This document shows positions 40,630-47,339 of a stretch of 64,000 nucleotides of DNA, piece by piece (within the stretch, counting starts at the first letter, position 1; the number at the start of each line of letters is the position of its first letter). The notes under the pieces were generated by a model. That model ran no database searches. It was not told the origin of the DNA and worked only from the letters and a program-made list of their open reading frames with translations. This DNA is from Paenibacillus borealis. GTDB lineage: Bacteria > Bacillota > Bacilli > Paenibacillales > Paenibacillaceae. The translations under genes were made by a program, and so were the position numbers. The DNA is taken from NCBI RefSeq assembly GCF_000758665.1, contig NZ_CP009285.1, positions 3,472,001-3,536,000 on the forward strand. Reading direction: 5' to 3'.

Positions 40630-41037
40630 ATGGCAACGATTATCGACACAGGGGCCAGCACTGCGACAACGGGCAGTCAGACCTTATCTATTCCAATTCT
40701 TTCACCTGCGGGAAATCTGATCTTGGCCGAGTTTGGCCTAGCTACTGTAACTTCAGGGGTTGTATTACTGAGTGCCTCCATCGGATTTCAAACTACGCTC
40801 GGCGTACCCAGTGTAGTCTTCACATTGTACCGGGACGGGCAGCCCATCTTCAATATGGGCTCCAGCGGACTGGCAATATTGGCAATCCAACCGATCACTA
40901 TAGCTTATATGGATAGAACTGTACCTGCTGGTTATCATGCATACAGTTTGGGTGTCGCCAATAACAGTCTGAATATCCTGCTCAATGCAGCCAGTGTTAC
41001 AGGACCCGTGACATTCTCAGGCACATCCATCGGATAA
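40630..41037 (+). CDS. Beta-rich protein, possible spore-surface/exosporium C-terminal domain
   Basis: 135 residues, no signal peptide, almost entirely predicted beta strands with many Ala, Thr, Gly and Ser. It ends TGPVTFSGTSIG. A distant paralogue on the other strand at 47458-47883 shares the MATII opening, strand order and the GPIAFTATAIGG end. This compact pattern resembles the TNF-like C-terminal domain of BclA-type exosporium proteins, without the collagen part; that link is inference. GAGGAGG ribosome site. Confidence 0.6.
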   Translation: MATIIDTGASTATTGSQTLSIPILSPAGNLILAEFGLATVTSGVVLLSASIGFQTTLGVPSVVFTLYRDGQPIFNMGSSGLAILAIQPITIAYMDRTVPAGYHAYSLGVANNSLNILLNAASVTGPVTFSGTSIG

Positions 41038-43932: not shown

Positions 43933-44181
43933 TCAATTACGCTGGAGTAACACATATCCGCTGATGCTTGATGTTTTTTTGCGGAACACGATTCTGAAGC
44001 CGATGTCGTTGTCCTGCAGACAGGCTAACGCTGTACTAAGCAATCCATTTGTTCTTAGGCTGGGCAAGCAAGGTTCGGCATTTCCGATTACCCGGCTGGC
44101 GGTAATTCTGCGTGCTGATCCGGGAACTAACGGGTTCCGGCTCCAATTGATCAACACCAAATCCGGCTGACGAGTCGCCAT
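43933..44181 (-). CDS. Hypothetical protein (82 aa)
   Basis: Opens MATRQPDLVLINWSRNPLVPG and ends ISGYVLLQRN. AAAGGGGT lies 9 bases upstream and a terminator follows directly, which supports this strand over an overlapping plus-strand frame. Beta-rich, basic, soluble. No family recognised. Confidence 0.55.
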   Translation of the reverse strand: MATRQPDLVLINWSRNPLVPGSARRITASRVIGNAEPCLPSLRTNGLLSTALACLQDNDIGFRIVFRKKTSSISGYVLLQRN

Positions 44182-44346
44182 GCTGATCTACCCCTTTCTA
44201 TTAAGGTTCTCTATATAGAATGCAGGGGAGAGAGTTATGTGCTGGACAAAAGTACCGCCTCTCAGGAAATAAATAGTATACGCTATACCGGGTACAGTTA
44301 TATAATTAATCTTGTGAATTAAAATTATGTCAGGCGGTGTTGTGTT

Positions 44347-44973
44347 TTGTCGTGGGAACCTGTGGGGTTCATGTTTTTCTCAGGTATAGAGGCATTTTCT
44401 TTATATTTTTTAATCATGTGTTTGTTCAGATTTAGATTTCAGGAGCATGTATGGCAGGCTTTATCGTTAACCCTATTGATCAATCTTCAAAGCTATGTAC
44501 TTCGCAATGATTTTACCTTAGGAAATATTATGCCTTTGGTTACAATAGGTTTCTTCGTTCTTTTCTTTGCTGTTTTTGTGAGAATGTCGTTGATCCTTTC
44601 ATTATTGTCAACCATATCGGGTTATGTCATATTTGGTGTGGTGCAGACTGGGATTGCAATTCTTCTCTTTGGATCTATCGATGCTGCCAAGTCAGGTATA
44701 AGTAATGGGTACATACTGCAATCCGTAAGCGGGGTACTCATTATATCAGGGGCATGGTTAGTTTATCGCTTAGGTTATGGATTTAGTTTCGATTTGAATA
44801 AGCTGAAGTTTAAGTTTGAAGATATTTCGGTTATCCTGTTGATCATGCTTTTTCTGATCTCCATTTCATCAGTTCTATATTATAACGAGACTTACATTAA
44901 TATTATTTACTTCGCGGTTACATCAGCTTACCTACTGTACTACGCCATCCGAAAGGATCAAAAAAGTGATTGA
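44347..44973 (+). CDS. Polytopic membrane protein of an agr-like cassette
   Basis: 208 residues with six or seven hydrophobic helices and few loops, ending in a short charged tail. The topology recalls the N-terminal sensor half of AgrC, but there is no histidine-kinase part at all. TTG start with AGGCGG upstream. Its stop overlaps the agrB start by 8 bases, so the genes are translationally coupled. Base composition is clearly more AT-rich than the region around. A receptor, immunity or export role for the peptide is inferred from position only. Confidence 0.7.
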   Translation: MSWEPVGFMFFSGIEAFSLYFLIMCLFRFRFQEHVWQALSLTLLINLQSYVLRNDFTLGNIMPLVTIGFFVLFFAVFVRMSLILSLLSTISGYVIFGVVQTGIAILLFGSIDAAKSGISNGYILQSVSGVLIISGAWLVYRLGYGFSFDLNKLKFKFEDISVILLIMLFLISISSVLYYNETYINIIYFAVTSAYLLYYAIRKDQKSD

Positions 44974-45502
44974 AAAACTATCTGCCCGAACAGCAAAAGC
45001 TATAAAAGAAGCGGTTCCGCATCATCCAACAAGTGAAGCAGTACTTAAATATGCGCTGGAAGGTATTTATAACGCTGTATTTATAATCGCCTTGACATTA
45101 CTTCTCTCAATGATTACCGGTAATACCAAAGAAACGTTTATTATACTAGTAACCTTTGCGTTATTAAGGCAAACAAGCGGAGGAAAGCATCTTCAATCTG
45201 GCGTTCTATGTGTAGTAGTTACTACCTCATTATTTACAGGAATGTCTTTTGTTAAGCCAGATGTACAAATGACGCAAATGCTAAACCTTATCAGTATTAT
45301 TCTTGTAGCCATGTACGCACCATCCAATATTGAGCATCAAAGTAGGATTCCTAAAAAGTATTACCCACTGTTAAAGCTAATAGCAGCTGTAATGATTGCG
45401 GCCAACTTCATTATTATATCTCCAACAGTATCGGTAAGTTTCTTTGTACAAGCGCTTACTCTGATTAAAACTTCACGAAGGGAGGTGAAATCCATTGACT
45501 AA
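44966..45502 (+). CDS. agrB: AgrB-like peptide-processing membrane protease
   Basis: 178 residues with about five membrane helices. The catalytic pair sits in RQTSGGKHLQSGVLCVV: His75 and Cys82, with the same seven-residue gap as His77/Cys84 of Staphylococcus AgrB. AgrB proteins cut the C-terminal tail of AgrD and close the (thio)lactone ring. The start overlaps the preceding gene; the stop overlaps the start of the small peptide gene, a classic agrBD arrangement. Confidence 0.88.
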   Translation: MIEKLSARTAKAIKEAVPHHPTSEAVLKYALEGIYNAVFIIALTLLLSMITGNTKETFIILVTFALLRQTSGGKHLQSGVLCVVVTTSLFTGMSFVKPDVQMTQMLNLISIILVAMYAPSNIEHQSRIPKKYYPLLKLIAAVMIAANFIIISPTVSVSFFVQALTLIKTSRREVKSID

Positions 45503-45638
45503 AATTCTACAGAAGATGAATAAGAGCATCGTTTACGGATTGGCATCTTGTCTGTCGGTAGTAGCCTTGACGTTTGTCAGTACTGCAAGTATTCTGTATA
45601 TTCATCAACCGAAAACTCCTTCAGAGTTATTGAAATAA
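45495..45638 (+). CDS. agrD: AgrD-like autoinducing-peptide precursor, cysteine-free signal region (47 aa)
   Basis: TTG start 8 bases after GGAGGTG, overlapping agrB. The product has an amphipathic/hydrophobic N-terminal helix (about 10-30) and a C-terminal recognition tail QPKTPSELLK like the xPxxPxEL tails of AgrD peptides. Between them lies STASILYI. There is no Cys here, so the ring would need Ser32 (Ser-Ile-Leu-Tyr-Ile, a five-residue lactone) instead of a thiolactone. The only Cys (19) is inside the helix. Ring residues are inferred. Confidence 0.75.
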   Translation: MTKILQKMNKSIVYGLASCLSVVALTFVSTASILYIHQPKTPSELLK

Positions 45639-45651
45639 GGAGCGGACAATT

Positions 45652-46023
45652 ATGATTACATTATCAGTGACAAAAGATGTGAATGGCCAATCCGGTGTGG
45701 TTTCTCTGCCGATTGATGAAATCTTGTATATGCAGCACAGCAGCGGTTTGCGAAAGGTTGTTGTATACACAGAAGATGGAACCTATTATACGACAGGTCC
45801 CCTTAGCTATTGGTGCACAGCACTGAATAATAGCGGTTTCGAATTTTCGGTGGGAGACCGTACAGCGGCCATTAATGTGAGGAAGATCGTACGGATGAAT
45901 GACTTTTTCAAAACAGCGTACTTTAATCTGAACAGCAAAAACGGCTGCATGCTGTCAAAAATAGGCTATGAGGATTTAAAGAAACAATTGGGAAGTGCAA
46001 TTGAAAACATAGTATTTAACTAG
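45652..46023 (+). CDS. Stand-alone LytTR DNA-binding regulator
   Basis: 123 residues forming a single LytTR domain (VSLPIDEILYMQHSSGLRKVVVYTEDGTYYTTGPL ... FEFSVGDRTAAINVRKIVRMNDFFKTAYF). There is no REC domain. AAGGAG precedes the ATG 14 bases after the peptide gene. LytTR proteins bind paired ACAGTTA-type repeats; one ACAGTTATA lies at 44294-44302 in the cassette's promoter region. Probably controls the cassette without phosphorylation. Confidence 0.85.
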   Translation: MITLSVTKDVNGQSGVVSLPIDEILYMQHSSGLRKVVVYTEDGTYYTTGPLSYWCTALNNSGFEFSVGDRTAAINVRKIVRMNDFFKTAYFNLNSKNGCMLSKIGYEDLKKQLGSAIENIVFN

Positions 46024-46047
46024 CCACCCGTTGGGTGGTTTTTTTAA
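46021..46047 (+). terminator. Terminator of the agr-like operon
   Basis: CCACCC GTT GGGTGG hairpin and seven T, directly at the LytTR stop. Confidence 0.9.
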
Positions 46048-46856: not shown

Positions 46857-47339
46857 ATGGCTACTATTTTCAATGAAAAGAACGTTTCGTTTGAACAAAG
46901 ACAATCCCCGGTTCCTGAGTTTGCCTGGCATACAAGCAGGAAGCTGGCTGAAATGGCCGGGGCGAAGCAGCTGCTTTTTGAAATCAGGTCGCTTGATCCC
47001 GGGAAGTATTCCTACCCGTATCATTTTCATAGAAGTGTTGAAGAGATCTTTGTAATTATTTCAGGCCGGGCTACCCTCAGAACGCCAGCAGGGTTCCAGG
47101 AAGTGCAGGAAGGGGACACTGTATTTTTTGAAACAGGGCCGGAAGGGGCACATCAATTATATAATCATACCGCCGAACCTTGCAGATACTTGGATTTGCG
47201 AACGAACCCGGGGATCGATATTTGTGAATATCCGGATTCCGGGAAGATTAACATTCTGCCTTACGAGGAAATCTATATGGCGGATGAGCGGGTGGACTAT
47301 TACAAAGGTGAGGAGAATGTCGCGGAGAAGTGGAAGTGA
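46857..47339 (+). CDS. Cupin-domain protein
   Basis: 160 residues with a single cupin: YHFHRSVEEIFVIISGRATLRTPAG (metal ligands His, His, Glu) and GPEGAHQLYNHT (second His). Probably a metal-binding isomerase, dioxygenase or sensor; substrate unknown. GAGGAGA precedes the ATG. The 200-base gap upstream shows only AT-rich promoter-like sequence. Confidence 0.8.
   Translation: MATIFNEKNVSFEQRQSPVPEFAWHTSRKLAEMAGAKQLLFEIRSLDPGKYSYPYHFHRSVEEIFVIISGRATLRTPAGFQEVQEGDTVFFETGPEGAHQLYNHTAEPCRYLDLRTNPGIDICEYPDSGKINILPYEEIYMADERVDYYKGEENVAEKWK

Follow-up and report, generated by a model that had tools for sequence, protein, structure and literature searches.

A kinase-free agr-like cassette of Paenibacillus borealis as a candidate self-contained peptide quorum-sensing operon

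Textbooks usually present agr-type peptide quorum sensing as a two-component relay. Here we describe a cassette of Paenibacillus borealis, located on the plus strand at positions 44347-46023 of a 64,000-nucleotide stretch of contig NZ_CP009285.1 (hereafter, the window), in which a membrane protein (MP), AgrB, AgrD and a lone LytTR protein are encoded in that order and followed by a terminator. We consider it reasonably probable that these genes form a self-contained peptide quorum-sensing operon that dispenses with phosphotransfer, with the MP as receptor, the bare LytTR protein as output and feedback through the operon's own promoter. Phosphorylation-free signalling is the best reading of this gene content. 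An initial sequence-only reading of the window had pointed out the gene set and proposed such signalling; its observation was confirmed, and its interpretation is partly supported. The finding also proved wider than first described: the cassette is no curiosity, and its layout is common in its bacterial family.

Results

The four genes are tightly coupled, and their ORFs (open reading frames) and profile matches bore out the assignments of the sequence-only reading. The MP gene (44347-44973) encodes 208 aa from a TTG start and overlaps by 8 bases the AgrB gene (44966-45502), whose 178-aa product matched PF04647 (72.3 bits, cut-off 23, E 4.3e-20) and is the proposed AgrD-precursor peptidase. 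A residue listing placed the expected His75 (codon 45188-45190) and Cys82 (codon 45209-45211) in AgrB. Another 8-base overlap leads into the gene for the 47-aa signal precursor AgrD (45495-45638; TIGR04223 quorum_AgrD, 37.9 bits, cut-off 19), and a gap of 13 bases separates this from the LytTR gene (45652-46023), which encodes 123 aa with a PF04397 match (36.5 bits, cut-off 22.6, E 6e-9). All of these features lie on the plus strand, as does the intrinsic terminator (46022-46046), which consists of a terminator-like hairpin at 46022-46040 and a T-run read from the sequence. The gene overlaps and the single terminator at the end suggest that the MP is cotranscribed with the rest of the cassette. 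As claimed, the AgrC kinase and the AgrA receiver are both absent from the locus: no kinase profile matched between window positions 41000 and 49000, and Pfam recognised the LytTR domain alone in the 123-aa protein, with no PF00072 receiver match. The description of an AT-rich island with its own terminator also held, with a G+C content of 37.9% in the cassette vs 49.5% in the whole window; equal-length stretches as low in G+C make up 1.9%.

A second four-gene cassette of the same order (L001) is present in this 8.16-Mb, one-contig genome, its AgrB sharing 38% identity over 171 residues with that of the window and its MP 28% over 160. Since homologues recur in the genus, and L001 lies in the same genome, a chance origin of the cassette can be excluded. 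The neighbourhood search of Paenibacillus genomes that the sequence-only reading had suggested showed how widely the cassette recurs. AgrB was present in 85 of 100 genomes, and our locus sample comprised 64 AgrB places among the matches listed, from 31 single-contig genomes, in stretches of 3.4-8 kb, with weaker matches unsampled. The MP was encoded in 55 of these 64 places, and a lone LytTR followed in 51 of the 55; one locus with both (L049) had an additional receiver protein on the opposite strand. A histidine kinase was found in 9/9 AgrB places without the MP (L023, L048, L056, L061, L076, L077, L086, L088 and L103, with only an AgrB fragment in L048), compared with 1/55 places with it, within the stretch (L207). 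The MP and the kinase are nearly mutually exclusive across AgrB loci, although a test of their independence (on the 63 loci other than L207) overstates the strength of this pattern because the loci are related by descent. In this genus sample, the kinase-free form of agr outnumbers the kinase form, 55 vs 9. Searches with MP profiles, in which the best 7 or 10 candidates per genome were scored and which hence give lower bounds, returned matches in at least 183 of 295 genomes and at least 16 of 19 genera of the family, and in at least 37 of 398 genomes and at least 10 of 145 genera of the class.

The cassette was also encountered on mobile elements. The four-gene set is carried by phages Abouo (L146) and Paisley (L147), of Brevibacillus and Paenibacillus; it adjoins an integrase gene in Abouo, and the start of a serine recombinase gene lies about 0.6 kb beyond it in Paisley. 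Plasmid pHD02 of Paenibacillus sp. IHB B 3084 bears a cassette with a Ser-type AgrD (L148:2998-4701), and one locus has a tandem pair of MP genes ahead of AgrB and LytTR (L184:2381-3788). On the 3' side of the window cassette lies a cupin gene (46857-47339), a relative of which likewise comes after the cassette of L071, a locus in which no LytTR gene was found.

We then turned to the identity of the 208-aa MP, which had no match at E 1 in Pfam or NCBIfam. An AlphaFold2 model of moderate confidence (mean pLDDT 76.7, falling to 52-64 beyond residue 150) contained about seven helices (4-26, 31-55, 59-76, 82-108, 118-141, 158-179 and 182-207). We collected 68 related proteins, and profile comparison placed the window-type and L001-type MPs in one family (hhalign 99.95%). 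A class-wide search with the MP profile, made without AgrB information, returned three matches in long ORFs of 416, 421 and 412 aa (L179-L181; E values 1.2e-10, 1.7e-9 and 1.3e-6). AgrB is nearby in each case, immediately beside two of them and 1.9 kb from the third, and the L179 locus encodes a receiver-LytTR protein as well. Taken jointly, the three matched the MP profiles in their N-terminal part (hhalign 98.3% and 97.8%) and a full AgrC-type kinase profile in their C-terminal part (97.2%; L179 alone 96.5%). As controls, the C-terminal part alone gave at most 0.3% against the MP, and the MP gave at most 1.4% against AgrB. The MP also gave at most 1.4% against Paenibacillus AgrC sensor domains, a powerless test in which two AgrC sensor sets matched each other at 1.8%. 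No Pfam kinase domain was called in L179-L181, and since 8 of 9 homologues of L179 have LRQ in place of the LRH motif, the three look like decayed AgrC kinases with an MP-like N-terminus. A locus from another genus (L163) encodes the MP, AgrB, AgrD and a receiver-LytTR protein, with no kinase within 6 kb (L189); together with L179-L181 it reads as a series from an AgrC-like receptor to the bare MP.

The company that the MP keeps was examined in 14 named loci found via one conserved peptide in the MP alignment. LytTR came after the MP in 13 of them, whereas AgrB was complete in seven, shortened in two (L194 and L198) and absent from four (L191, L195, L197 and L201); in the remaining locus, from Neobacillus (L204), the MP alone was recognised. 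The MP and LytTR therefore stand together in 6 of the 14 with AgrB missing or broken, and in L195 the AgrD frame is still open although AgrB is absent. The four loci without AgrB may possibly belong to listeners that produce no signal. Because the MP is homologous to the N-termini of agr-linked AgrC-like proteins, and is kept with LytTR where AgrB has been lost or broken, it is likely the receptor for the peptide. Of the three roles that the sequence-only reading had offered for it (receptor, immunity factor or export factor), the first is the one that gained backing.

These same 4 of 14 loci also speak for an explanation that we consider unlikely, namely that the cassette belongs to the LytTR regulatory systems (LRS) and that its membrane inhibitor responds to a different cue, such as membrane stress, with AgrB and AgrD as passengers that make a separate signal or a bacteriocin-like peptide. 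LRS such as HdrRM and BrsRM do consist of a LytTR regulator and a membrane protein that inhibits it, according to the accessible part of PMC6193735, and the P. borealis genome itself encodes a DUF3021 membrane protein (L007:1043-1477; 35.5 bits, cut-off 24.7) beside a LytTR gene in the LRS layout. However, the set travels as one unit in 51 of the 64 AgrB places, MP-like domains form the N-termini of AgrC-like proteins encoded near AgrB, direct repeats of the LRS kind are not in excess, and the genes stand in the opposite order to those of the S. mutans LRS (PMC6193735, same portion). A DUF3021 match in L006 fell below the cut-off. Next to ABC-transporter-like genes, L005:1492-2490 encodes a 332-aa protein that ends in a LytTR domain, ahead of which the sequence looks ATPase-like by eye.

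The sequence-only reading had called AgrD cysteine-free, which is accurate for its signal region, where Ser32 is present and Cys is not, but not for its leader, which contains Cys19. With the register set on the Pro at +6 of the tail, and residue class playing no part in ORF picking, Ser32 falls at -5 before the predicted AgrB cleavage site. We therefore agree with the earlier assignment of Ser32-Ile36 (SILYI, codons 45588-45602; followed by HQPKTPSELLK) as the predicted five-residue lactone ring of this peptide. Among 92 distinct AgrDs, Ser occupied -5 in 42, Cys occupied -5 in 9 and Lys occupied -4 (with neither of the two at -5) in 41, with none outside these classes; this count excludes L048, L076 (wrong small ORF), L103 (none picked) and L014-L026. 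In a recount with more loci and a stricter tail pattern, 95 of 98 rows fell into the three classes, and 24 loci yielded no peptide. The other three rows (L051, L095 and L180) look by eye like unrelated ORFs rather than AgrD, given that a separate AgrD was identified in each of the three loci. The kinase-linked AgrDs were Cys-type throughout (5/5 in one count and 12/12 in the recount), but inspection by eye of a kinase-linked peptide outside both counts (L014) places Ser at -5, so the Ser type is not exclusive to kinase-free loci.

In the Lys class, to which L001, phages Abouo and Paisley and L143 belong, the Lys at -4 is invariant while positions -7 to -5 and -3 to -1 vary. TIGR04223 scored L001 and other Lys peptides at 10.5-12.6, below its cut-off of 19. 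In S. aureus AIP-I the ring Cys also stands at -5. That ring is 16-membered (PMC4979651, in the part available), and our computation gave the same 16 atoms for a Lys side chain closing on four residues as for Cys or Ser closing on five. Because Lys at -4, Cys at -5 and Ser at -5 each give a 16-atom ring, we predict lysine-lactam signals for the Lys-class AgrDs, although the conserved Lys could serve an end other than ring closure. In searches of an open-access library, judged by listings and accessible text and with subscription papers and preprints outside their scope, no description of Lys-based autoinducing peptides came up. An AgrB tree fits one origin of the Lys class, weakly supported (74/54; 0 in a quick tree), and groups the MP-linked AgrBs together, also with weak support (67 in the quick tree). 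Directly after the Lys-type cassette L001 we noted a gene for an Sda-like sporulation inhibitor (L001:2743-2922; PF08970, 27.4 bits, cut-off 22.6). Across the genus, a sequence motif located it at 26 of 35 Lys-type places vs 0 of 29 Ser/Cys-type places, and a tie between Lys-type cassettes and sporulation control is possible.

Upstream of the window MP gene, a Shine-Dalgarno-like AGGCGGTG (44332-44339, plus strand) was read, of which GGCGGTG is largely kept in the upstream alignment. Ahead of it on the same strand lies the putative promoter element TATACG-N14-GWTATATAAT (44277-44306), with TATAAT at 44301-44306 as the -10 and TATACG at the place of the -35. Fifteen distinct loci, the window included, have this element 5' of the MP gene, amid DNA that is otherwise little conserved. 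L075 has it one base off (TATACT) and so outside the search pattern. An L001-type promoter, TTGTTG-N17-TATAAT with GTGT.A upstream, was found in 25 distinct loci, and 23 loci, L075 among them, fitted neither pattern. Allowing up to one mismatch, the window element had a single match in the 8.16-Mb genome, and so did a reversed control pattern. Since the window-type and L001-type promoters are each conserved and each occur once in the genome, at their own cassette, self-control of the cassette is likely.

Discussion

From these motifs and profile comparisons, we propose that AgrB would cleave AgrD after Ile36 and close the Ser32-Ile36 lactone, and that the exported cyclic peptide would be sensed by the 208-aa MP, which by homology would correspond to an AgrC-like receptor reduced to its sensory half, minus the kinase half. 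The MP would then control the bare LytTR protein by direct contact; in the simplest form, as proposed for LRS, it would keep LytTR at the membrane until the peptide binds. LytTR would presumably act first on the operon's own promoter, which is conserved and single in the genome, producing positive feedback.

Several results weigh against this reading. The MP has almost no cytosolic part with which to touch LytTR, and a structural search with its model gave no informative match. The kinase match of the bridging proteins L179-L181 depends on the profile and is weaker than their MP match: L180 and L181 gave 67.4% against the full kinase set, and when the set was narrowed to six kinases all three gave 86.6% jointly and L179 alone 6.4%. 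Nor were direct repeats of the LRS type (9 bp, with a spacer of about 12 bp, upstream of the -35) in excess over shuffles, the mean best match being 5.27 vs 5.38 for the window type and 5.72 vs 5.36 for the L001 type; a repeat search of 44150-44346 found none. Four loci (L054, L071, L080 and L207) have the MP and AgrB without a lone LytTR, and in L207 a receiver-LytTR and kinase pair is encoded 1.4 kb downstream. Finally, this genome contains two AgrC/AgrA-like pairs (L008 and L009, each a HATPase_c_5 kinase with a receiver-LytTR protein), taken literally, the circumstance that the sequence-only reading had named as telling against itself.

The last two observations favour an account to which we give only a small chance, in which the peptide is sensed by the L008 or L009 pair, the MP serves in export or immunity and LytTR is a side regulator. 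Neither pair has an AgrB within its 3.3-kb stretch. Against it stand the retention of the MP with LytTR where AgrB was lost and the homology of the MP to an AgrC-like N-terminus, along with the content of two complete cassette-bearing genomes in which we found no AgrC/AgrA-like pair. In G017 (2 contigs, 100% complete) there is one cassette, and of 2 PF04397 matches the only one outside it is LytSR-type; three cassettes occur in G071 (one contig, 100% complete) along with 6 PF04397 matches, those outside the cassettes being a LytSR-type protein, an ATPase-LytTR fusion and a lone LytTR. The LytSR-type proteins, which we take to be such from their architecture, are the only receiver-LytTR proteins among these matches, and none of the PF14501 matches (9 in G017 and 4 in G071) exceeded 20 bits in the AgrC-type profile, although a very divergent pair could escape such searches, given that PF04397 did not list the LytTR of G071 L085 and our own profile did. 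Because G017 and G071 have cassettes and no such pair was found there, the L008 and L009 pairs are unlikely to be needed for cassette signalling. G071 also encodes an AgrB-linked protein of 245 aa (L143:1057-1794) with seemingly two LytTR-like repeats, of which Pfam calls the second only, followed by a further lone LytTR protein.

The low G+C of the cassette, and the loss of AgrB or LytTR in some relatives, could also be taken to mean that a full agr locus once stood here and is now in decay. We find this very improbable, as all four frames are open, the motifs and promoter are kept among relatives, an AgrD identical to that of the window is found in G058 (L075, the nearest relative), and the same set occurs on phages and a plasmid.

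If the self-contained, kinase-free operon is the correct interpretation, then the commoner form of agr in the sampled genus needs no phosphate, and a receptor domain can address a DNA-binding domain directly. L179-L181 and the receiver-bearing L163 would be intermediates in the loss of the phosphorelay, species that keep MP-LytTR and have lost AgrB would be natural eavesdroppers, and the Lys class would add a hydrolysis-resistant lactam, made by the same enzyme type, to known signal chemistry. More tentatively, and with somewhat less than an even chance in our judgement, the Paenibacillaceae and their relatives may hold a large agr-derived family that swapped the two-component relay for a kinase-free receptor and a bare LytTR, one branch of which exchanged the thiolactone for a Lys side-chain macrolactam; the P. 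borealis genome would then run a Ser-lactone system here and a Lys-lactam system at L001.

Comparison with known systems

Like staphylococcal agr (agrBDCA), the cassette has an AgrB with His/Cys, a ring nucleophile at -5, a Pro-containing AgrD tail and a LytTR output; unlike it, the cassette has neither a histidine kinase nor a receiver domain, carries the 208-aa MP as an extra leading gene, and has Ser in place of Cys. The agr locus of S. pseudintermedius is of the BDCA kind. So is the enterococcal fsr locus, arranged fsrBDCA, and the accessible text of PMC12312760 describes Ser-based lactone signals for both Fsr (GBAP) and S. pseudintermedius agr. The Ser-based lactone predicted for the cassette resembles these (PMC12312760), whereas its own gene set, unlike theirs, is kinase-free. 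Membrane proteins without a HATPase domain were noted in 2014, next to AgrB and a putative AgrD, in phages Davies, Emery and Abouo; the available portion of that paper interprets them as possible AgrC homologues and mentions no LytTR partner (PMC3901668). On re-examination, Abouo encodes both an MP and a LytTR protein, like the window cassette, and Paisley does likewise. Within the literature scope given above, and in the accessible text (including PMC11945551), no description of the four-gene kinase-free system came up. The cassette shares with LRS a LytTR regulator without a receiver, a co-encoded membrane protein and the lack of a kinase. It differs from them in that its MP is encoded first and has no Pfam match (the LRS membrane proteins are named as DUF3021 and DUF2154 in the accessible part of PMC6193735), in that direct repeats are not in excess, and in that it encodes a dedicated peptide signal. 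Judged by its sequence, the cassette is thus agr-like at its signal end and LRS-like at its output end, and a full member of neither group, because the AgrC kinase, the AgrA receiver and the LRS repeats were each looked for and the cassette has none of these hallmarks.
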